DNA from: Stigmatella aurantiaca DW4/3-1 | GTDB lineage: Bacteria > Myxococcota > Myxococcia > Myxococcales > Myxococcaceae | Reading direction: 5' to 3' | Assembly: GCF_000165485.1 (NCBI RefSeq) | Contig: NC_014623.1 | Span: 3,305,501 to 3,369,500 of the forward strand | Length of the DNA: 64,000 bases | Shown here: piece by piece, positions 6,566-20,618 of the stretch | How the letters are laid out: every line of letters begins with the position of its first letter | Numbering within the stretch: position 1 is the first letter of the stretch | Translations under genes and position numbers: made by a program | The notes under the pieces: model-generated | Databases searched by the model: none | What the model was told of the DNA's origin: nothing | The model's input: only the letters and a program-made list of their open reading frames with translations

Positions 6566-7949
6566 CCGGACGCAGACCGTGACGTTGGCCGGGGCGGGGC
6601 TGGTTGGTTCGCTGCTGGCCATGTTTCTGGCCCGGCGCGGCTTTCAGGTGGAGGTGCTGGAGCGGCGCGCGGACATGCGGCGGGAGGGAGGCTCGGCGGG
6701 ACGCTCCATCAACCTCGCCATCTCCGCGCGGGGGCTGTACGCGCTGCGGCGGGTGGGGCTGGAACAGGAGGCGCTGCGGCACGCCATTCCCATGCGGGGC
6801 CGGATGATCCATCCGGTGTCCGGTGAGCTGAGCCTGCAACCCTATGGGAAGGACGACTCCCAGCACATCAACAGCATCTCCCGGGCGTGGCTCAACAAGT
6901 GCCTGATGACCCACGCGGAAGAAACGGGCCGGGTCAACATTCGCTTCAAGCAACGCATCCAGCAGGTGGATTTCGATACGGGGGCGCTCACCGTGCTGGA
7001 CGAGGCGGGCGGGGGGACCCGCGAGGCGCGGACCTCCGTGCTGTTCGGAACGGATGGCTCGGGCTCGGCGGTGCGGCAGGCGATGATGCGGCTTCCGGGA
7101 TACACCTCGACCCAGGAGCCGCTGAGCCATGGTTACAAGGAGCTCACCATTCCGGCGGGGCCAGGCGGCACGTTCCAGATGGAGAAGAACGCGCTGCACA
7201 TCTGGCCTCGGGGCACCTACATGCTCATTGCGTTGCCGAACGAGGACGGCAGCTTCACCTGCACGCTCTTCCTTCCGTTCGAAGGGCCGGTGAGCTTCGC
7301 GTCGCTGGATTCCCCTGGAAAGGTCCTCGCATTCTTCGAGGAGCGATTCCCGGACGCGGTTCCGCTGCTTCCCGAGCTCACGCACGATTTCTTCCACAAC
7401 CCCACGGGGACCATGGTCACCGTGAAGGGGACGCCTTGGCAGGTGGGAGGCCGTGCGCTGGTGCTGGGAGACGCGGCGCACGCCATCGTGCCGTTCTTCG
7501 GGCAGGGGATGAACTGCGGCTTCGAGGACTGCGGGGTGCTCGATGGGTGCCTGGAGCGCCACCGGACGTGGGAGGAAGCCTTCGCCGAGTTCTTCCACCT
7601 GCGCAAAACGAACGCGGATGCCATCGCGGACATGGCGGTGGAGAACTTCACCGAGATGAGCAGCAGCACCGCCAGCGCGCGCTTCCTGCTGGAGAAGCAG
7701 GTGGAGAAGGCGCTGCTCAATGCGTTTCCAGGACAATTCTTGAGCCGCTACTCGCTGGTGAGCTTTAGCCGGGTGCCCTACCGCATGGCCTATGAGGTGG
7801 GTACCCGGGCGGGGGGCATCGTGTCTGAACTGTCCGAGGGGCTGTCCCGAGTGGAGGACGTGGACCTCGAACGCGCTGCCCAGCTCATCCAGGAGCGGCT
7901 GGTGCCATTCATGAAGGAGCACGCGGATGGATTTCGGACTGAAGGGTAG
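6552..7949 (+). CDS. kmo: Kynurenine 3-monooxygenase
   Basis: A 465-residue FAD-dependent aromatic hydroxylase converting kynurenine to 3-hydroxykynurenine with NADPH and O2. It shows the N-terminal dinucleotide fold GAGLVGSLLAMFLARRGF followed by ERR, the KMO-typical GRSINLAISARG near residue 55, and the second FAD motif LGDAAHAIVPFFGQGMNCGF near 310. The C-terminus (LSRYSLVSFSRVPY) resembles the membrane-association region of other KMOs. It is embedded between kynureninase and the SDR gene with overlaps on both sides. With kynureninase and the dioxygenase it makes the route through 3-hydroxykynurenine explicit. Confidence 0.95.
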   Translation: MPEIDRTQTVTLAGAGLVGSLLAMFLARRGFQVEVLERRADMRREGGSAGRSINLAISARGLYALRRVGLEQEALRHAIPMRGRMIHPVSGELSLQPYGKDDSQHINSISRAWLNKCLMTHAEETGRVNIRFKQRIQQVDFDTGALTVLDEAGGGTREARTSVLFGTDGSGSAVRQAMMRLPGYTSTQEPLSHGYKELTIPAGPGGTFQMEKNALHIWPRGTYMLIALPNEDGSFTCTLFLPFEGPVSFASLDSPGKVLAFFEERFPDAVPLLPELTHDFFHNPTGTMVTVKGTPWQVGGRALVLGDAAHAIVPFFGQGMNCGFEDCGVLDGCLERHRTWEEAFAEFFHLRKTNADAIADMAVENFTEMSSSTASARFLLEKQVEKALLNAFPGQFLSRYSLVSFSRVPYRMAYEVGTRAGGIVSELSEGLSRVEDVDLERAAQLIQERLVPFMKEHADGFRTEG

Positions 7950-8664
7950 ACGGGCGCTGGTGCTGGGCGCCTCCAGCGGGCTGGGGTTCGCCATCGCCTC
8001 GACGCTGGTGAAGGAAGGGACGAAGGTGGCCATCTGCTCGCGCAGCGAGGAGCGGATTCGCGCCGCGGCCTTGAGCATGGGGGCGGTGGAGGGGATCGCG
8101 GCGGACCTCACGGCGCCGGGAAGCACCCGGTCGGTCGTGGAGAAAGCCATCGCGGCGCTGGGAGGCGTGGACATCCTGGTCATCAACACGGGAGGCCCCC
8201 CGAAAGGCGGCATCCTGGAGGTTTCCGACGCCCAGTGGCAGGAGGGGTTCCAGAGCCTGTGGATGGGAGCGGTGGAGGGGATTCGGGCGGCGGTGCCAGG
8301 AATGAAGGAGCGGGGCTGGGGCCGCATCGTGCTGGTGACCTCCTCGTCCGCGCGCGAGCCCATGACGGGTTTGACGATCTCCAGCGGCCTGAGGGCGGGG
8401 TTGATGGGGCTCACCAAGATCGTCAGCGATGAAGTGGCGTGTCACGGCATCACCCTGAACGCGGTGCTCCCGGGCTACCACGCCACGGATCGGCTGAAGC
8501 AACTGGGCATTGCCGAGGATCGTCTCTCCGCGCAGATTCCGGCGCGTCGGCTGGGCCGCCCCGAAGAGTTGGGCGCGTTGGTGGCGTTCCTGGCCTCGGA
8601 GCAGGCGGCGTACATCACCGGCCAGTCCATCGTGGCGGATGGGGGCGCGTCGCGTGGTTTCTGA
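7927..8664 (+). CDS. SDR-family protein with degenerate catalytic tetrad
   Basis: A 245-residue Rossmann-fold short-chain dehydrogenase-like protein, overlapping kmo by 23 bases and last in the operon. The cofactor motif is GASSGLGFA near residue 15 and NTG stands in for NAG near 88. Where classical SDRs have Ser, Tyr-x3-Lys, this one reads TSSSAREPMTGLTISSGLRAG, so the catalytic Tyr and Lys are replaced by Ser and Arg. It looks like the 3-oxoacyl-ACP-reductase-like subgroup that lacks a perfect tetrad. Its role in kynurenine breakdown is unknown. A classical reductase role is unlikely unless other residues substitute. Confidence 0.8.
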   Translation: MDFGLKGRRALVLGASSGLGFAIASTLVKEGTKVAICSRSEERIRAAALSMGAVEGIAADLTAPGSTRSVVEKAIAALGGVDILVINTGGPPKGGILEVSDAQWQEGFQSLWMGAVEGIRAAVPGMKERGWGRIVLVTSSSAREPMTGLTISSGLRAGLMGLTKIVSDEVACHGITLNAVLPGYHATDRLKQLGIAEDRLSAQIPARRLGRPEELGALVAFLASEQAAYITGQSIVADGGASRGF

Positions 8665-10879: not shown

Positions 10880-13174
10880 TTAGTACGTGGCGTCGCGCAG
10901 CGCCCGGAGCATGCTCGCACTCCCCTGTCCTGCGGCGTAGAGGGTGGCGGCGCCCTTCGGCCGGTTGACCCCGATAAATTCGGTGGCTGCGTGTTTGGCT
11001 GCGGCCGTGGCGATCACGAAGATGTCCGCGGTCGCCGCCTGTTGCTTCAAGGCAGGCGATCCTCCGGCCTTGTCGCTGAAGCACGCGACGCGAGCTGTCG
11101 GGGCAAGTTGCTTGATGACACGTGTAACCCGCTCCAGGACGTTCGCTTTCAGTGAATAGAGAGCGATCTTGCGTCCTTCGAGCGCCGCGGCCAGGGTCCC
11201 ACCGGACGCGGAGTTCTCACGTGATTCATCCTGAAGCCTCTGCTCCAGAGGACTCGGCACGTGCAGGGCAAGTTCTTTCGCCAGGTCCCGCAGCAGCAGA
11301 ATCTGCTCCCGGCTCGTGCGGCGCATGTGGTGCTGCAGGTACCGCGTGACTTCATGGAAGAACTGTGCGCGCTCCTCTGGGTCGGCAGCTGGGTGGTTCA
11401 CCAGCATGTCCAGGGTGTCGAGGGCCCAATCTCCGAGCGAGGCCGCTGCCACTCGCATCCATGTTTCTCTCAGGGACGTGAGCGCGGAACGGTATTCGCC
11501 TGCCGTCAGGCCTATCCGGATCAGTGCCTCGGTCACTTCGCAGAGCGCCTGCAACTGCTCCACGCGGACTTGATCGTCCAGAGCGATGACGACAGCGAGC
11601 TGCTCCAGCACCGGCTTGAGCACTCGCTCGGGTCCTTCGGGGGTCAAAAGAAACGAGAGCAGGTGAGGAAGGCCTGTGCGGAGAGCCTCCTCTCCCCAAG
11701 GTGGGCGGACAGTACCGAGTTCCCTGGCGGTCGCCTCCACACGGGCTGGGTTGCCAATCCATTCGGGCCGAAGCCATTCGCGCATACCGTGCTCGGCCAC
11801 TTCGAGCGCGCTGGGCCATGGCTCCGGATGTCGCAGGCGCTCGAGCCAGCCACTCGGATCCACGGGAATGACAGGAGGGGAGGGGGGAGCCGCTGTCGGC
11901 CGGGCCGGAGGCTGTGTGGCGAGTTCGAGCAGCCGCTCGTAGTGACGGCGCAGGGGCTCCCGGCCCAGGAGCGCCTCGCGTTCGTTGGGAGAGGCACTGT
12001 CCACGGAGGCGAGCGCCTTCCGGGCTGCATCGAGCGTGTCGAGTTCGCTCGCACAACGCAGGAGGAGCGCGAGCCGCTCCACCCCTTCTGGGTGCGTCAG
12101 CGCTTCTTGGAAGGCGCGGTCCACGTCCGCCTCTTCGAATGCCTTGCGAGCTGCGTCGAGGCCATGAGCCGGAGCCATGCCCTGGGGGCCAGGGACGAGC
12201 GCCGCGAGCGCCTCGAGGTAAGGGCGATCCAGGGCATTCACCGGAAGTGCCGCCAAGAGTTCGTCTCGCAGTTCTGGGCGCGCGGGCCGGGCTGCCGCCG
12301 CCAGCATCATGAAGCAGCGCGTGACCTCCGGTGCGGCCATCCCGCGGCGCGTCCGGAACAGCGTGGGGCAGGTGGGCCAAAGTTGGCTGAAGTGCGCGAC
12401 CGCCCCCGCGGCGTCGCACGCCCTCTCGAAGGGCCTCAGCTCCTGGACATAGAGCGCCCGGATCAGTGCCTGGGTCACTCGCCGCGGGCGGGCGAGCGTC
12501 AGCAAGGTATTGAATCGTCTGGGCTCGAGAAGCTCCTCCCACGCCTGGAGGCACTCCGCGCGCAGGACCTCGAGGAAGAGCTGGTTCTGTGCGGAGAGCC
12601 GTCCGAGCCGCCGGAATTCCGCGATGTGACCGGCAGCGGCCGTGCCATCCCCTGCTCTGAGGGCATGTTCAAAGTCTCCGAGGATGCGGCCGGTGGGGCG
12701 GGGAACGGCGAGCAGACGGAGGGGCCGCTCCTTGCGCAGCGTCTGCATCAGCAGGAGCTTCCGCCGCACGTGCTCCCGGTACTCCTTGCGTGGGACTCGC
12801 AAGCGGAAGGCCCGTCCCGGCGCAGCCTGTCTCACTGCCTGATCGATCGGGTCCTGGGTGTCCAGCTGGGACCACGCGGCCCACGGACCGGCGTATGAGG
12901 GACCAACGAAGGCGATCAACTGCTCGCGCAAGGCCCGGGCCCCCGAGGCAGTGGCCGAGAGCGCATACCATTCCACCCGGTCATCCTCCCGCACGCGAGG
13001 AAGACACAACGGGTCTTCCCCGGCGCGGAGCGCCTCAATCCAAGGGGCAAGCCGCTCCAGCGTGTCGTGAGGGAGTCTTTTTTCCTGGATTTTCTCCCAG
13101 CGAAGCTTGTTTCCAGGTCCGAAGAAGCGCTCGGGAAACCCTGGAGGCAGCCATGAACGCGGAGGTGCGCTCAC
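10880..13174 (-). CDS. Large unknown protein, DpdD-like
   Basis: A 764-residue protein starting at GTG 13174, which overlaps the stop of the PLD gene (GTGA); the frame is open further upstream but there it only shadows the PLD gene. The N-terminus reads SWLPPGFPERFFGPGNKLRWEKI. The middle is Leu/Arg/Ala-rich and helical, like TPR or HEAT material. The last 100 residues look like a small Rossmann-type domain (GRKIALYSLKAN, VACFSDKAGGS, ADIFVIATAAAKHAATEFI). Its place after a DpdK-like PLD and a DpdJ-like helicase suggests DpdD of the 7-deazapurine-in-DNA restriction systems. I have no alignment. An unnamed defence protein is the alternative. Confidence 0.5.
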   Translation of the reverse strand: MSAPPRSWLPPGFPERFFGPGNKLRWEKIQEKRLPHDTLERLAPWIEALRAGEDPLCLPRVREDDRVEWYALSATASGARALREQLIAFVGPSYAGPWAAWSQLDTQDPIDQAVRQAAPGRAFRLRVPRKEYREHVRRKLLLMQTLRKERPLRLLAVPRPTGRILGDFEHALRAGDGTAAAGHIAEFRRLGRLSAQNQLFLEVLRAECLQAWEELLEPRRFNTLLTLARPRRVTQALIRALYVQELRPFERACDAAGAVAHFSQLWPTCPTLFRTRRGMAAPEVTRCFMMLAAAARPARPELRDELLAALPVNALDRPYLEALAALVPGPQGMAPAHGLDAARKAFEEADVDRAFQEALTHPEGVERLALLLRCASELDTLDAARKALASVDSASPNEREALLGREPLRRHYERLLELATQPPARPTAAPPSPPVIPVDPSGWLERLRHPEPWPSALEVAEHGMREWLRPEWIGNPARVEATARELGTVRPPWGEEALRTGLPHLLSFLLTPEGPERVLKPVLEQLAVVIALDDQVRVEQLQALCEVTEALIRIGLTAGEYRSALTSLRETWMRVAAASLGDWALDTLDMLVNHPAADPEERAQFFHEVTRYLQHHMRRTSREQILLLRDLAKELALHVPSPLEQRLQDESRENSASGGTLAAALEGRKIALYSLKANVLERVTRVIKQLAPTARVACFSDKAGGSPALKQQAATADIFVIATAAAKHAATEFIGVNRPKGAATLYAAGQGSASMLRALRDATY

Positions 13175-13710
13175 AGGACCCCTCCGTATTCGCGATGGAA
13201 TGAAACGCGAAGGCTGGCCACTTGCGCCGGATCTCTCTGCAGGGTCACCAACTCGGTCTGGATCTCGATACCGCTGTAGGTGAAGTTCATCGAGCCGGTG
13301 AGTCCGAAGTCGTCTCCAATCAGCCCCTTGGCGTGAAGGACATCCCGCTTGAAGAGGGTCAGCGACCCTGAAGGGAGCCTGCCCACCACCGAATCGTGCA
13401 GCGCCTTGCAGAAGCGCACGCTCTCTGGCTCGGACCTCGTGGCCAGCACCAACCGCGTTCCGCGATTCATCAGCCGCCGAAGGACGTCGCTCAGCCGCAG
13501 CCGCGTGGGGGAGAGTTCCGGATCCAGACTTCTGAAGGCCGCCGTCTGGTTGTCGAGCACCTCGATGTCCCTCACCCAGGGGGACACCAGCCACAAGCAC
13601 CGGCTGGGCTTGAGGAACTCGCGCACGAAGAGCCCCTGGAGCACCTCTCGAATCTCGTTCCGGGAAGCGGAGGAGGTCCGGAGGATCTGCCTCGTGGTGA
13701 TCTGGCTCAT
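13171..13710 (-). CDS. Phospholipase D-like protein, DpdK-like
   Basis: A 179-residue protein with one HKD half-site: HAKGLIGDDFGLTGSMNFTY near residues 126-145 supplies His, Lys and the following Ser/Asn. The N-terminal half has PSRCLWLVSPWVRDIEVLDN and RGTRLVLATRSE. One HKD per chain implies a dimeric active site. The SMNFTYSGIE stretch and SPWV-I-VLDN layout fit what I recall of DpdK proteins better than DrmC of DISARM. It overlaps the helicase by ATGA and the DpdD-like gene by GTGA, so one transcript makes all three. Expected role: nuclease or DNA-end processing in a restriction-type defence. Confidence 0.65.
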   Translation of the reverse strand: MSQITTRQILRTSSASRNEIREVLQGLFVREFLKPSRCLWLVSPWVRDIEVLDNQTAAFRSLDPELSPTRLRLSDVLRRLMNRGTRLVLATRSEPESVRFCKALHDSVVGRLPSGSLTLFKRDVLHAKGLIGDDFGLTGSMNFTYSGIEIQTELVTLQRDPAQVASLRVSFHREYGGVL

Positions 13711-16700
13711 TGCACTGCCTCCGGCAGGTCAAAGAGCACGGCCATCCGCCCTTGCTCGCGGCGCGTGCCGCGGACGTGCGGGTGGACGAGCAGTGTGTAG
13801 GTATCGAGCGGCTCGATGAGGACCGCCAAGATGGCTTCCCGGAGCCGTTCGGGCTCGGTGACAGGCCCGGAGAGCCGTGCCGAGCCGTGCTGGACGAGCT
13901 GGGTGGTGAGTGTCTCCATCCAGTCCGGATCCTCCAGCCGCACCTCGTCATGTCTGCGTGGCAGCAGCATCAGTGCAAGGCGGCGGTCAGTGGGAGGCAA
14001 GGAGCAATAGGGATTGGTCGTCTTCATGCTCTCGGCGCGGATTCCCGATCCGCGGGGCCAGAGAAGGCCCATGAGCGCGGAGAAGCGCCACGCTGCCCGG
14101 TCGCCAGGAACCGCTTCCGGGTATCCCAGCGCGGCCTCCAGCGTGTCGTTGCCGCTCTCGCGGCTGGCGATCAGCCGAAGATCGAGCTCGATTCCCAGCC
14201 GTGCCTCTTCGGCATCCCAGTCCGCGAGGATCCGCGAGAGCAGCGCATCTGTTGCAAGTGAACTGCCTGGGCGCAGCGGCCTGGCAAAGATCGCCGCCAC
14301 CACGGGCTGGTTGACCACGAAGCCACGCTCCGCGAGCATGCGGCGCAAGGCATGTGAACGCTGGCTCAACGCCTGATGGCCTCCCGATGCGCGTGTTTCC
14401 TCCACCGCCCGGGCAAGCGCCTCGTCCCGAGGGCCGCGGCTGCCAGTGATACGTCCCAGCAACTCCCGGAGTTGGGTGTCGATCTCCTCGAAATCAGAGG
14501 GAGCCAGGATGGACTCGAGCAGATCGAAGAAGCGCCGGGGATCTTCGCCATAGCGTGCCAGGAATGCCTCGATCACGGCAGCTCCCCCCAGGGCGGCCTC
14601 GGTCAGCCAGATCCGCGAGCTGTCTTTCGCGCCTTCGGCATCCAGCTCGAGCAGGAGATCTCCCGCGTCGATCTGGGCACACAGCAGCTGGAGGGTCCCC
14701 AAGCAGGCCGTGCCCAGCGTGGCCCTGACGCGCCGCCGCAGCCAGGGTTCCCAGGAGGCGTCCGGCGGGGCCCATAGAACGCGCGCCGCATCGTTCAGCG
14801 CCGCCAGCACCGAAGGGCCATCCAGCAGATCGACGAGCGCTTGGTGGCGACGGGAGCGCAGGAGGTTGCCGGGAGCCTCGTCATCGGTGTCATCCTCGCC
14901 GGTGAGGTTGTCTCCGGCGGGCAGGGCCATGAAGAGCGTGTCGAGCGCCTTCCCAAGCAGCACCCCCTCTTGGCCACGGAGCCGCTCTTGCGCTTGCTCC
15001 AGGGTACTTCCACTGCTCAGCGCCTCCAACGCCAAGGCCGAGAGGTAGGCATCCCCCAGCCAGTCGCGCTGGAAGCGATTCGCCAGCCCGTCGAGCCGCT
15101 CATCTTCTTGCAGGCGATGGTGGAAGAGGGCGGGGCGCAGGCCGCGCATCAACTCCGGATCGGTTGCGCAGAGGGGCGCGAGCGGCTCGGGAAGGTTCAG
15201 CCCAATCTCCAGCGCGTCAACCTCGGCGTTGAAGCCCAGGGCTGCTGGCTCCATCCGGCCGTTCGCTGCTTGCCGTTCGAAGGTCACCTTTCCTTCGAAT
15301 TCCTCTCCTCCCTCCAGTTTGAGCGACACGTTTATCGCGGGCGCGTAGCGAGTGAGTTCCACCGGCTGCGAGAGCGCGTGGGTGTGGACTTTCAAGCAGG
15401 TGATCAACTCCCTCCACTGCGAGTGGCGGGGCAGGTCGAGTTCAAGCCCATCAGCAGTGGGACGCAGGGCGGTGAGCCACTGGAGAAATGCATTCGAAGA
15501 AGAGAGGACCTCCGAAGGGGGTTCGCTTGTCGTGAGTTGGAGCGGCCGCACCACGGCCACTTCTTCTGCCGCGCCCGGTACCGGAAACCGGCCGAGATCC
15601 AGGGCGTGCTCTGGTCCGCAGAAATCCTCCAGCCGGAGACTGCCTCCACCCCGGGGAACGGGGATCCAATTCCGCTGCTGGATGTGCTCGATGCTGAAGC
15701 GGTGTGAGACGTGTCCCGGCGCGAACTCACGGAGCGATTGATCGATGGGCATCCATTCGGGGCGGTTGCGGAACCGGTTCTTCAGGAGGATCTCCACCTC
15801 GGGAATGTTGAGGTCGCCGAAGAGCGTGGCAGGGATGAACTCTGGCAGCGGAACCTTCTTTGTGAAGCCCTCCGTCGATTCCACCAGATGGGTGGAAGCC
15901 ACCCGCCAGTTGCGCTCCAACTGGCGCAACCAAGTAGGAATCACGGATGTGAGCAGGGCGCGAGGGGGGTCCCAGAGGAGTGCTTGGGCGGTGGAGTCGT
16001 CCAGGTGCAGCGCATCCTGCAGATAGCCCTTGAAGCGCTCGCGCTCGCGCTGATCCTCCAGCAGGGCCCGGAGGCACTTGACGGCGGCCTGCTGACGCTT
16101 CTGCTTTTCCGGGCCGTCGCTTGGAGCGGTGAGGTCCGACCACGGGTCGATCCGCCGGTCCGTGTATGACAGCCAGTCGAGCAGGACGTAGGTGGCCTGC
16201 ATCTTCAGGACATGCCGGTTTCCGATGGGAAGAGAGCGGGGGGGCAGTTCGGGCGAGAAGAGCTGCTCGTAGCTCCGGTAAGCGGTCCGGTCTCGTCCGA
16301 AGTCCGAGAGGACGACGAGGGTCCACGGCCGCATGACATGGGAACGGCCGGCACGGCCCTTCCGTTGCAAGAAGGCGGCGGAACTCAGGGGGGCCTTGTG
16401 CTGCACGACCGCCCCAACGTGTGGGTCATCGAATCCCACCTCAAGAGACGAGGTCGCCACGACGATCTCCGCCTTCCGGTCGATCCCTCGGTCCAGAGAG
16501 CTCACCCGTTCCACTGGAACGCGGGCGCCGGGCGCCAGGGAGTGGCCGATCCACTCGGCGATGTCCCACGATTGGCCATCGGCCAGACGCGCTGTGTGCT
16601 CGGGGTGAGCGCGAGCACGCAGGGTGGCCAGCGAGCCCCAAGGGCTGCGCTTGTTGGGCTCCCCACTCCGCTTCCAGCCCTCGGCATCCTGCGTGTCGAA

Positions 16701-18257
16701 GAAGAGGCGGTTATTGACGTCGAGGTTGTCTGTGAAGGCGAACACCTTGCTGCCGTAGGCCTCGGGCGTACTTCCGGTGGGCTCGAGCGCCCGCCGCATG
16801 AGCATGACTGTCTGAATGGAGGTGGACAGCAGGCTCGCGCCGGAAACGGGATCCCCACGGAGCGCCACCAGGTATTCCATCCCCTTGTAGATGAACTCAG
16901 ACGGCTCCGGGATCGCCGCGACAACCTCACCCCGCTTCACGCCGGTCAAGTCAGCGAAGAAGCGTTCCGGATCGGCAAGGGTGGCGGACAGACCCACGAA
17001 GTGGGGCTTTGCTCCCGTGAGCTTCTGCCAGCGCCGGAGCAGGAGTGCCACCTGCGCACCGTGGATGCCCTCGTACGTATGGACCTCGTCGAGCAGCACG
17101 AGCCGCGGCAGCTGCTCCTCGGGAACCCCGAACCCGAACAGCTTGCCAAAGGTGGCCATCCGCCTGTTGAGCATTTCGGTGGTGGTGAACAGCAGGTCCG
17201 GAGGCTCGGCGATCATGCGCTTGCGTGTGATGCGCAGGGACTGCGGCCCCAGGGTGAAGCCACAGGATTCGCAGGAGAGCCGCTCCGTGCCATGGTGGAT
17301 GTCTGAGAGGGCCCACAGCAGCCGGTGGCGGCACTGGGGGCAATCGCTCAGGGGACAACGGAGCGCGTTCTTCTCCGCCACCGGCTCCCATGCATCCATG
17401 TACTTTTTGTTCCGCAGCGCTTCCGTCGAGAGATCTTCCGCGTCCCAGGGGACATCTCCGTACAGGACACCGATCGACAGGCATGCGCTCTTGTCCTTGG
17501 AAAGCACTGGGTTGATGCGAGCCACCTGGCCCAGTGACTCGCGCAGTTGGTCCTTCAGCAACTCATTGCGTGGGTAGAGCGCCATGCACTTTGTCCAGGG
17601 GTGTCCATCGATCCAGCTGGACATCGCAGTGAACGCCGGCAGGTAAAACGCGTGCGTTTTCCCACTGCCAGTTCCTGCGCAGACGATGGTGCCTGAGGCA
17701 CGCCGGGAAGCAGCCCGGCTGAGGATGGACTTTGTCGCGGCGAGCTGGAAGCCCGCCAGCCTCATCGGCTCCTTCGAGTCGATTCGGAGCAAGGCCCGAA
17801 GCACCGCTTGCTGCCGCTCGCTGAGCCCTTTGAGTTCATCGAGAACCTTTTGGGGCTCAAGTGTTCGAGCAGGGAAGGCACGAGGACGGAGCAACAGGCG
17901 GAAGTCCGCCACCAACGGCTTCGCGCTTCGCCATCGCTTCTGTGGGTCGCCGGGAAAGATCTGCCGCAGCCGGGCGAGCAGCCGGAGCGTCTCCGCCATT
18001 CGCGAGCGGTACTGGCCTGCCTCGGCGTGGTTTGGCACGTTCCAGAGAAGGCGCTTCTCCTCAAGCCAGGCGAGAAGCTCATCCGGAGTGTTGAATCCGG
18101 CGGACGGGTTCTTGGAGAGGAAGCTGGATGCATTTTGCAAGAGCTCCTCGCGGGTGAAATAGCTGTCGACAATTCCCCACGACAGGAGCGCCGCTTCGGC
18201 TCGCTCCAGCTCACCCAGGAACTCCAGGCCGTGGTGCTGTCGCGCGTCACGGCTCAT
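13707..18257 (-). CDS. Very large superfamily 2 helicase, DpdJ-like
   Basis: About 1516 residues from ATG 18257 (MSRDARQHHGLEFLGELE); the frame is open to 18401, so the start is uncertain. SF2 motifs in order: Walker A AGTGSGKTHAF near residue 195, ALYPRNELLKDQL (Ia), LLDEVHTYEG (II), GLSATLAD (III), ATSSLEVGFDDPHVG (V) and LQRKGRAGRSH (VI). Between Ia and II is a Zn-ribbon-like insert with CPLSDCPQC and CESC. About 800 residues of unknown C-terminal domain follow. The N-terminal AALLSWGIVDSYF is a signature I associate with DpdJ. It heads the three-gene module and would be its DNA translocase. A DISARM-type helicase is less likely, as no DUF1998 partner is seen. Confidence 0.65.
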   Translation of the reverse strand: MSRDARQHHGLEFLGELERAEAALLSWGIVDSYFTREELLQNASSFLSKNPSAGFNTPDELLAWLEEKRLLWNVPNHAEAGQYRSRMAETLRLLARLRQIFPGDPQKRWRSAKPLVADFRLLLRPRAFPARTLEPQKVLDELKGLSERQQAVLRALLRIDSKEPMRLAGFQLAATKSILSRAASRRASGTIVCAGTGSGKTHAFYLPAFTAMSSWIDGHPWTKCMALYPRNELLKDQLRESLGQVARINPVLSKDKSACLSIGVLYGDVPWDAEDLSTEALRNKKYMDAWEPVAEKNALRCPLSDCPQCRHRLLWALSDIHHGTERLSCESCGFTLGPQSLRITRKRMIAEPPDLLFTTTEMLNRRMATFGKLFGFGVPEEQLPRLVLLDEVHTYEGIHGAQVALLLRRWQKLTGAKPHFVGLSATLADPERFFADLTGVKRGEVVAAIPEPSEFIYKGMEYLVALRGDPVSGASLLSTSIQTVMLMRRALEPTGSTPEAYGSKVFAFTDNLDVNNRLFFDTQDAEGWKRSGEPNKRSPWGSLATLRARAHPEHTARLADGQSWDIAEWIGHSLAPGARVPVERVSSLDRGIDRKAEIVVATSSLEVGFDDPHVGAVVQHKAPLSSAAFLQRKGRAGRSHVMRPWTLVVLSDFGRDRTAYRSYEQLFSPELPPRSLPIGNRHVLKMQATYVLLDWLSYTDRRIDPWSDLTAPSDGPEKQKRQQAAVKCLRALLEDQRERERFKGYLQDALHLDDSTAQALLWDPPRALLTSVIPTWLRQLERNWRVASTHLVESTEGFTKKVPLPEFIPATLFGDLNIPEVEILLKNRFRNRPEWMPIDQSLREFAPGHVSHRFSIEHIQQRNWIPVPRGGGSLRLEDFCGPEHALDLGRFPVPGAAEEVAVVRPLQLTTSEPPSEVLSSSNAFLQWLTALRPTADGLELDLPRHSQWRELITCLKVHTHALSQPVELTRYAPAINVSLKLEGGEEFEGKVTFERQAANGRMEPAALGFNAEVDALEIGLNLPEPLAPLCATDPELMRGLRPALFHHRLQEDERLDGLANRFQRDWLGDAYLSALALEALSSGSTLEQAQERLRGQEGVLLGKALDTLFMALPAGDNLTGEDDTDDEAPGNLLRSRRHQALVDLLDGPSVLAALNDAARVLWAPPDASWEPWLRRRVRATLGTACLGTLQLLCAQIDAGDLLLELDAEGAKDSSRIWLTEAALGGAAVIEAFLARYGEDPRRFFDLLESILAPSDFEEIDTQLRELLGRITGSRGPRDEALARAVEETRASGGHQALSQRSHALRRMLAERGFVVNQPVVAAIFARPLRPGSSLATDALLSRILADWDAEEARLGIELDLRLIASRESGNDTLEAALGYPEAVPGDRAAWRFSALMGLLWPRGSGIRAESMKTTNPYCSLPPTDRRLALMLLPRRHDEVRLEDPDWMETLTTQLVQHGSARLSGPVTEPERLREAILAVLIEPLDTYTLLVHPHVRGTRREQGRMAVLFDLPEAVQ

Positions 18258-19056: not shown

Positions 19057-20424
19057 GTGGGAGCGAGTGGACCCTCTGTTGCCAGTGGCCAAGAAGAAGG
19101 AGCTTGGGCGAGGCCGACCTCGGGCAAACGACCGGGCCGCACTGGAAGCCAGCGTCGTTGTGCAGCGGACTGGAATCCCTTGGGAAATGCTTCCGGCGAA
19201 GCAGTTTGGTCTGTCGGGAATGACCGCCTGGCGGCGCTTGGAGCAATGGACGCGTGCCGGGGTGTTTGAGCCATTGCAGCGCGTGCTCCTGGACGAACTG
19301 GAACATTGGGGAAAGGTGGACCGCAACCGCGCATCGATCGACTCTTCAGCCGTTCTATCCAGGAGGAGGTGTCCGCCCTCTCTGCCCAGGAGCTCACCCC
19401 CCGTGCTCGAGCTAACCGGAGCCTGGGACGGTCGCTCCTGGAGGCCAGGCTGCACCCTTCGCGATTCTTCCTGGCCCTGAGAGACATCCGTGCCGGGCGC
19501 CCCCTCTACCAGAGGGGTGCGTAAGTCAGAGGAAGGAGCCTCGGGTGGGGGGCCACCCGTGGGTGGCCGTTGGCTCGAACCTGTAGGGCAAGCAGACAGG
19601 ATGGGACCCTTCGCCTCCGACGACCTCCCCGTGGCGTCTTCATGCTCCGGGGTGGGGTGAGAGGGGACCGTGTCTGCGCAGAGTGGGGGCCGTGACGACC
19701 CCCTGGGCTCCTGCGGGGGTGGAAGGCCTGCAAGTAGGTGCGCATCGCTCGCCTGGAGCAAGGCGGGCAGTTCCCGGCGCAGGGGCTGCGCGTCCTTGGC
19801 AGCCAAGGCGTGCAGCGCACAGAGTGCCCACTGCCGAGTGGCCTGCGCATTCAGGTGCGGCCTCAGCCGCCGAGCCATTTCCCGGTACGAGCGCTCCAGT
19901 GATTGCAGCAACAGGGCCTGTCCGGGACGGTCCACCGCGCGGGCTGCTTGCCTCAGCAACGCGAACTCCAGCTCCACCCACCTGCCGGGGTTGTCGCCCC
20001 AGCGGGCCTCCTCCGCCAACTCGAAGCACAGGCCTGCCAGCGTGTCCAAGTCCCTGGCAGAGGCCTGCTGGCAACACGCCGCCAGCAGTTCCACAGCCGT
20101 CTCTCGCTTGAGGGCCAGAAAACCCTCCAGCAGCTTCCGTCTGTCCGGTTGAGCGACGCCCGGGCCCTCCAGCACCACCCCCAGGTTCTCCAGGGTCACC
20201 GCCCCCTCCAAGGGGAGGGCTCGGCTGCGGCGGCCTGGGTGCTGCTCAATCAATGCTCTGGCGGCCAGGCGCTTCAGTGCTTCACGGACGGTGCTGCGTG
20301 AAAGGCCGTAGTGCTTGGCCAGAGTGTTTTCTGAGGGAAGCAATCCATCCTGGGGCAGCAGGCCGTGCGAAATCATCCGCTCCAGGTCCTGCTCCACTCG
20401 TCCGACGAGCCCCGACCATTCCAT
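19051..20424 (-). CDS. GntR-family regulator with long tail
   Basis: A 457-codon frame whose first 240 residues are a clear FadR-type GntR protein: MEWSGLVGRVEQDLERMI, then LLPSENTLAKHYGLSRSTVREALKRLAARALIE as the winged helix, and a helical C-terminal domain (LEGFLALKRETAVELLAACC). After residue 240 comes a Pro/Gly/Ser-rich tail with ACPTGSSQRPPTGG. The last 90 or so codons are antisense to the IS5 fragment, so the original C-terminus was probably altered by the insertion. Targets are unknown. Its neighbour on the left is the IS remnant rather than a functional gene. Confidence 0.7.
   Translation of the reverse strand: MEWSGLVGRVEQDLERMISHGLLPQDGLLPSENTLAKHYGLSRSTVREALKRLAARALIEQHPGRRSRALPLEGAVTLENLGVVLEGPGVAQPDRRKLLEGFLALKRETAVELLAACCQQASARDLDTLAGLCFELAEEARWGDNPGRWVELEFALLRQAARAVDRPGQALLLQSLERSYREMARRLRPHLNAQATRQWALCALHALAAKDAQPLRRELPALLQASDAHLLAGLPPPQEPRGSSRPPLCADTVPSHPTPEHEDATGRSSEAKGPILSACPTGSSQRPPTGGPPPEAPSSDLRTPLVEGAPGTDVSQGQEESRRVQPGLQERPSQAPVSSSTGGELLGREGGHLLLDRTAEESIDARLRSTFPQCSSSSRSTRCNGSNTPARVHCSKRRQAVIPDRPNCFAGSISQGIPVRCTTTLASSAARSFARGRPRPSSFFLATGNRGSTRSHC
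19067..19350 (+). pseudogene. IS5-family transposase, N-terminal fragment
   Basis: The frame (GTG 19067) reads MDPLLPVAKKKELGRGRPRA, then DRAALEASVVVQRTGIPWEM, FGLSGMTAWRRLEQWTRAGV and VDRNRASIDSSAV. This is the DUF4096-type N-terminal domain of IS5-family transposases: GRPRANDRAAL, RTGIPW, SGMTAWRR and the first catalytic Asp in SIDSS. Similarity stops after about 95 codons, and the rest of the DDE domain is absent. The element is dead. It interrupts the minus-strand gene at 18918-19040 and lies against the tail of the GntR gene. Confidence 0.75.
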
Positions 20425-20618
20425 GTCCCGCCCCCCTGCTTGTTTCAGGCTGGGCCATCACACCACCTGGGGCTGACAGGGTGGGGGGAGCTTGCCCCGC
20501 TTGGGAGACTCTCCCTCACTTCTCATGGATGACGCAGCCAGAAGCCACACGCCGCCGCAGCCAATCAACGCTGGCGCGCCTGTACATTTGACGCTTGAGG
20601 AACTTGAGCCTCGTGCAT

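Follow-up and report, generated by a model that had tools for sequence, protein, structure and literature searches.

Three genes of Stigmatella aurantiaca DW4/3-1 that resemble the restriction side of a 7-deazapurine DNA (Dpd) system, with no modification genes beside them, raise the question of how such a module could tell self from non-self. They lie in a window (the whole stretch of DNA that was analysed, 64,000 nucleotides) at C1:3305501-3369500 of a genome that consists of a single contig of 10,260,756 bases. A sequence-only reading of the window had described them as an orphan DpdJ-DpdK-DpdD-like module, made up of a giant helicase with a Cys-rich insert, a single-HKD phospholipase D (PLD) protein and a 764-residue protein, which would need some other means of recognizing self. 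The three overlap-coupled minus-strand genes are present as it described:

13707..18257, minus strand: dpdJ, a YprA-family SF2 helicase with a Cys-rich insert in RecA1, 1516 aa; NF041067, 1625.6 bits
13171..13710, minus strand: dpdK, a single-HKD phospholipase-D-fold nuclease, 179 aa; NF041068, 182.8 bits
10880..13174, minus strand: dpdD, 764 aa, GTG start; NF041061, 526.9 bits

The dpdJ and dpdK genes are joined by a 4-bp ATGA overlap and dpdK and dpdD by a 4-bp GTGA overlap (window 10880-18257). All three products score far over the curated NCBIfam equivalog cut-offs (800 bits for DpdJ, 100 for DpdK, 300 for DpdD), and the best PADLOC scores are in agreement (DpdJ 1773 bits, from PDLC02896 at 1772.8; DpdK 202; DpdD 1794). 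The best non-Dpd PADLOC scores are far weaker, namely SngC 71, BrxH 67, DruE 61 and DrmA 41 bits for the helicase and DrmC 21 bits for the nuclease. In the profile comparison with DrmA, DrmB and DrmC that the sequence-only reading had proposed, the Dpd families win and no unrelated named system emerges. Judged by these scores, the identity of the genes as DpdJ-DpdK-DpdD, the predicted restriction side of Dpd, is confirmed.

According to PMC12458937, DpdJ is a helicase of the YprA family that is paired with a PLD nuclease; it has an N-terminal winged helix, a RecA1 with a zinc insert and an ALBA-like domain at the C terminus. Helicase motifs I, II, III, V and VI are all intact in the window DpdJ, and the Cys-rich insert, starting at residue 301, has the form C-x4-C-x2-C ... 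C-x2-C. DpdK has one HKD motif, also intact (HAKGLIGDD...GSMN). DpdD contains the motif AAAKHAATEFI, of which KHAATEFI is invariant across the alignment. Six of ten aligned DpdD members have a DUF2325 match in the C-terminal region; the window DpdD itself has none, and a profile search with it against the PDB returned nothing useful. A phage origin of the three genes was considered and rejected, given that DpdD relatives are absent from viral contigs and that DpdJ has two weak matches in phage records. An unverified faecal phage scaffold, MT835580.1 (L124), carries a DpdJ-like helicase matching at 28.6% over half the query.

No dpdA, dpdB or dpdC was found within the 64-kb window, as had been claimed from the sequence alone. 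A TGT profile search of the genome recovered three genes, of which two are ordinary tgt genes and the third, at C1:8416117, is divergent; all three modification genes lie around this divergent copy:

C1:8414609-8415565: dpdC; PADLOC PDLC02817, 353 bits, with a weak DUF6884 match below cut-off
C1:8415658-8416965: dpdA; NF041059, 568 bits, cut-off 200
C1:8416950-8418065: dpdB; NF041060, 477 bits, cut-off 300

The restriction genes do lack a linked modification set, but they are not an orphan module: an intact dpdC-A-B operon (C1:8414609-8418065) is on the same chromosome, ~5.1 Mb away in either direction if the chromosome is circular, and the two sets of genes do not form one island on this contig. 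Since dpdC-A-B is present, no other self-marking scheme is needed, and self-discrimination without modification was set aside as the main reading. Residues 2-409 of DpdA (408 residues) align to 7UI4, the S. Montevideo DNA-guanine transglycosylase. A congener (G005) has the dpdC-A-B region in collinear order, at ~86-94% nucleotide identity. The dN/dS values relative to a congener are 0.19 for dpdC, 0.10 for dpdA and 0.19 for dpdB, similar to those of adjacent genes, and the three genes are under purifying selection. The supply of preQ0 was judged on QueC alone, which is present at C1:8749700 with 249 bits. Another QueC-like gene, divergent and scoring 86 bits, occurs at G000:C1:8370697, ~44 kb from dpdC-A-B.

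Profile searches indicate that the true gap, which the sequence-only reading had not noticed, is dpdE-F-G-H(-I). In relatives, the canonical restriction operon runs E-F-G-H-I-J-K-D or, where the contig stops short, shows the downstream portion of this order, and dpdE-F-G-H(-I) accompany J-K-D in nearly all other relatives examined whose contig extends far enough. DpdH occurs in 11 of 13 DpdD genomes; it is missing only from S. aurantiaca and from a 1.9-Mb MAG in which the DpdD contig is 3.7 kb. DpdG and DpdH have zero matches genome-wide in S. aurantiaca, and the same search does find the divergent copies in a congener (G002). Genome matches to DpdF are RecQ-like only. The best genome match to DpdE is a RapA-like helicase at C1:9239923, which was rejected as DpdE because it scores higher to RapA (416 vs 303 bits) and relatives have copies scoring alike. 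There is no dpdI in the window, and a tblastn search of the whole window with the E-I proteins of two relatives gave chance-level matches only, the DpdF query matching only the helicase motifs of DpdJ. The restriction set dpdD-K is thus incomplete, with G and H absent, only generic helicases for E and F, and no remnants of E-I in the window.

The congener G002 (C2:238.8-256.6 kb) and the relative G089 (C1:8.056-8.074 Mb) have J-K-D in the same order and strand, with dpdA likewise unlinked. Unlike S. aurantiaca, both retain E-F-G-H-I upstream of J, and their proteins are only 34-43% (G002) or 26-33% (G089) identical to those of the window genes. The succession J, K, D is shared with most relatives examined; in a Nostoc plasmid several small genes lie between J and K. 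The best reading of these comparisons is that J-K-D represents the 3' end of a canonical E-F-G-H-I-J-K-D operon, and that the peculiarity of the locus is a reduced J-K-D set with putative modification genes in trans.

Upstream of dpdJ are two features that bear on how the reduced set could have arisen:

19067..19360, plus strand: fragment of an IS4/5-family transposase gene; DUF4096, 64.6 bits, covering only residues 2-69 of a 137-aa frame
19346..20485, minus strand: copy of a GntR-like element with a GntR domain, 87% identical in nucleotides to L016:3243-4424

The transposase fragment is 0.8 kb upstream of dpdJ and is joined to the GntR-like element. The genome has this element once more, upstream of dpdC, and the orthologous site in G005 is continuous without it; judged from these sites, the element is mobile. 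Synteny with three congeners stops at window position 8662, the 3' end of an SDR gene (7927-8664), and J-K-D lies just beyond. G005 has a repeat of ~200 bp from the 3' end of this gene 8 kb further downstream (L110:17255-17455), a pattern that suggests insertion of an element at an attachment site in the gene end. The GC3 of J, K and D is 75-83%, vs roughly 85% in most window genes. The dpdC-A-B genes are in the conserved genome backbone (8.41 Mb) and J-K-D is in an accessory region (3.32 Mb). Removal of dpdE-I by a transposition-linked deletion is plausible.

Signs of decay were sought at near-invariant columns. With 14 relatives aligned, the window DpdJ shows none: it departs at 8 of 240 such columns (3%), within a range of 0-23% among relatives, and its zinc-binding cysteines are intact. 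DpdK departs at 3 of 22 columns and DpdD at 1 of 9, both weak tests. The intact motifs and columns argue against old decay, not against recent loss. In the RecA1 insert of the G089 DpdJ (L049) the zinc-binding cysteines are missing; nearly all other aligned DpdJ proteins retain them.

The 195 Myxococcota genomes include 4 with DpdD and 16 with a DpdA over cut-off, and DpdA is present in three of the four DpdD genomes (hypergeometric p 0.0017, a value that is uncorrected, ignores kinship and rests on three related genomes). All three Myxococcaceae with DpdD also have DpdA, unlinked in every case: 5.1 Mb apart in S. aurantiaca (G000), 6.6 Mb apart in G089 and on different contigs in G002. G171, the remaining DpdD genome, has dpdB beside dpdE right where a contig terminates, and its dpdA may lie just off the contig. 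Outside the phylum, DpdA occurs in 8 of 9 DpdD genomes, the exception being a 1.9-Mb MAG. In Myxococcaceae, dpdC-A-B is commonly found on its own, with no DpdD in the genome (G005, G013, G088, G090), and G005 has no DpdD match at E <= 0.001. A published survey, which took a within-island view only, had already reported that restriction content is reduced in Myxococcota, and had described Archangium islands without the restriction operon (PMC11888242).

Other arrangements were seen along the way. A dpdC-B-A-B order with dpdE, F and H nearby occurs at L054, L118 (G002 C15), L128-L129 (G091) and L138-L139 (G075). These loci have a divergent DpdJ-like helicase match, with G nearby also in G002 and G091, and DpdD is absent from G091, from G075 and from the G002 C15 locus; by gene content they are a different Dpd arrangement. 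The restriction operon on plasmid p057_I of Nostoc sp. C057 (L121) reads E-F-G-H-(I)-J...K-D; DpdA has no match on this plasmid, which makes it possibly another split system. Plasmid pART37 of Paenibacillus sp. 37 (L122) carries dpdJ twice within a single cluster. Behind one copy come dpdK and a hypothetical protein that the DpdD query matches; behind the other come a small hypothetical protein and a DUF2325 protein. Duplication of the whole J-K-D block as a unit may be the explanation there.

For S. aurantiaca we lean, with modest confidence, towards a split and reduced Dpd system in which J-K-D would restrict DNA lacking a mark made in trans. The dpdC-A-B products are predicted to introduce dPreQ0/dADG into the DNA of the host, with the queuosine pathway supplying the preQ0. 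DpdJ, as a helicase or translocase with a zinc insert, would load on DNA and move along it, DpdK, as a PLD nuclease, would cut, and the DUF2325-related DpdD would link or sense, likely in a bridging or sensing role; the three would act together on unmarked DNA. Three steps of this are inferred: production of the mark, its reading by J-K-D, and an ability of J-K-D to restrict without E-I. This reading draws on J, K and D scoring over cut-offs in a genome that also encodes DpdA, DpdB and DpdC, on the match of DpdA to 7UI4, the purifying selection on dpdC-A-B and the presence of QueC, on the frequency of DpdA in Myxococcota DpdD genomes (3/4, vs 16/195 overall), and on a DpdJ deviation within the range of its relatives. 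It is weakened by the missing E-I and by transposase debris where the promoter would have to be. That J-K-D is a self-sufficient minimal core that dispenses with DpdE-I and reads the mark from unlinked, core-genome dpdC-A-B, the mark being ancestral in Myxococcaceae while restriction modules come and go, seems to us rather unlikely.

The main rival, doubtful but to be taken seriously, is that an IS-mediated deletion took dpdE-I, and probably the promoter too, stranding a J-K-D that is intact but inactive, the loss being too recent for decay. The genome-wide absence of E-H, the window's lack of E-I, the transposase fragment and mobile element directly upstream of dpdJ, the break in congener synteny at 8662, which indicates a rearranged region, and the lower GC3 all suit such a history; ~2459 intact codons, the retained DpdJ motifs and near-invariant columns, and both retained 4-bp overlaps speak against it. 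An improbable alternative makes J-K-D independent of deazaguanine marks, with another self/non-self cue and with dpdC-A-B as an unrelated solitary modification unit. The solitary dpdC-A-B of other Myxococcaceae makes such independence conceivable, but DpdA accompanies DpdD in 8 of 9 genomes outside the myxobacteria and in all three Myxococcaceae that have DpdD. It is very improbable indeed that the system is complete but scattered, with dpdE-I homologues too divergent for the profiles. The helicase at C1:9239923, with 303 bits to DpdE, and the divergent G and H homologues of G002 could be cited for this, but that helicase is nearer to RapA and has similar-scoring copies in relatives, and G and H are unmatched in S. 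aurantiaca by a search that picks up the G002 copies.

A natural three-gene J-K-D with in-trans modification would be the simplest setting for working out which of the proteins cut DNA and how the mark is recognized; its interest is modest unless J-K-D is active alone. The locus also illustrates that gene counts inside one window or island miss unlinked partners. The S. Montevideo dpd cluster is cited in PMC5567051 as restricting unmodified plasmid >1000-fold, and a 2025 review states that the restriction activity associated with Dpd has seen no further exploration (PMC12707154).

Among known systems, the DISARM core (DrmA helicase, DrmB DUF1998 protein and DrmC PLD nuclease) likewise has three genes and combines a YprA-family helicase with a PLD nuclease. 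Membership of DISARM (DrmA, DrmB and DrmC plus a DNA methyltransferase) was rejected because the DISARM scores, at <=41 bits for DpdJ to DrmA and <=21 bits for DpdK to DrmC, are far under the Dpd scores and the cut-offs; no methyltransferase is linked to J-K-D, and DpdD has no DrmB profile match. The S. aurantiaca genes differ from the known Dpd system in that dpdG and dpdH are absent, dpdE and dpdF were not detected and no dpdI lies in the window. The known system keeps its synthesis and restriction genes in one island, whereas in S. aurantiaca they are ~5.1 Mb apart; as in the known system, DpdJ, DpdK and DpdD and DpdA, DpdB and DpdC are all recognizable in this one genome.
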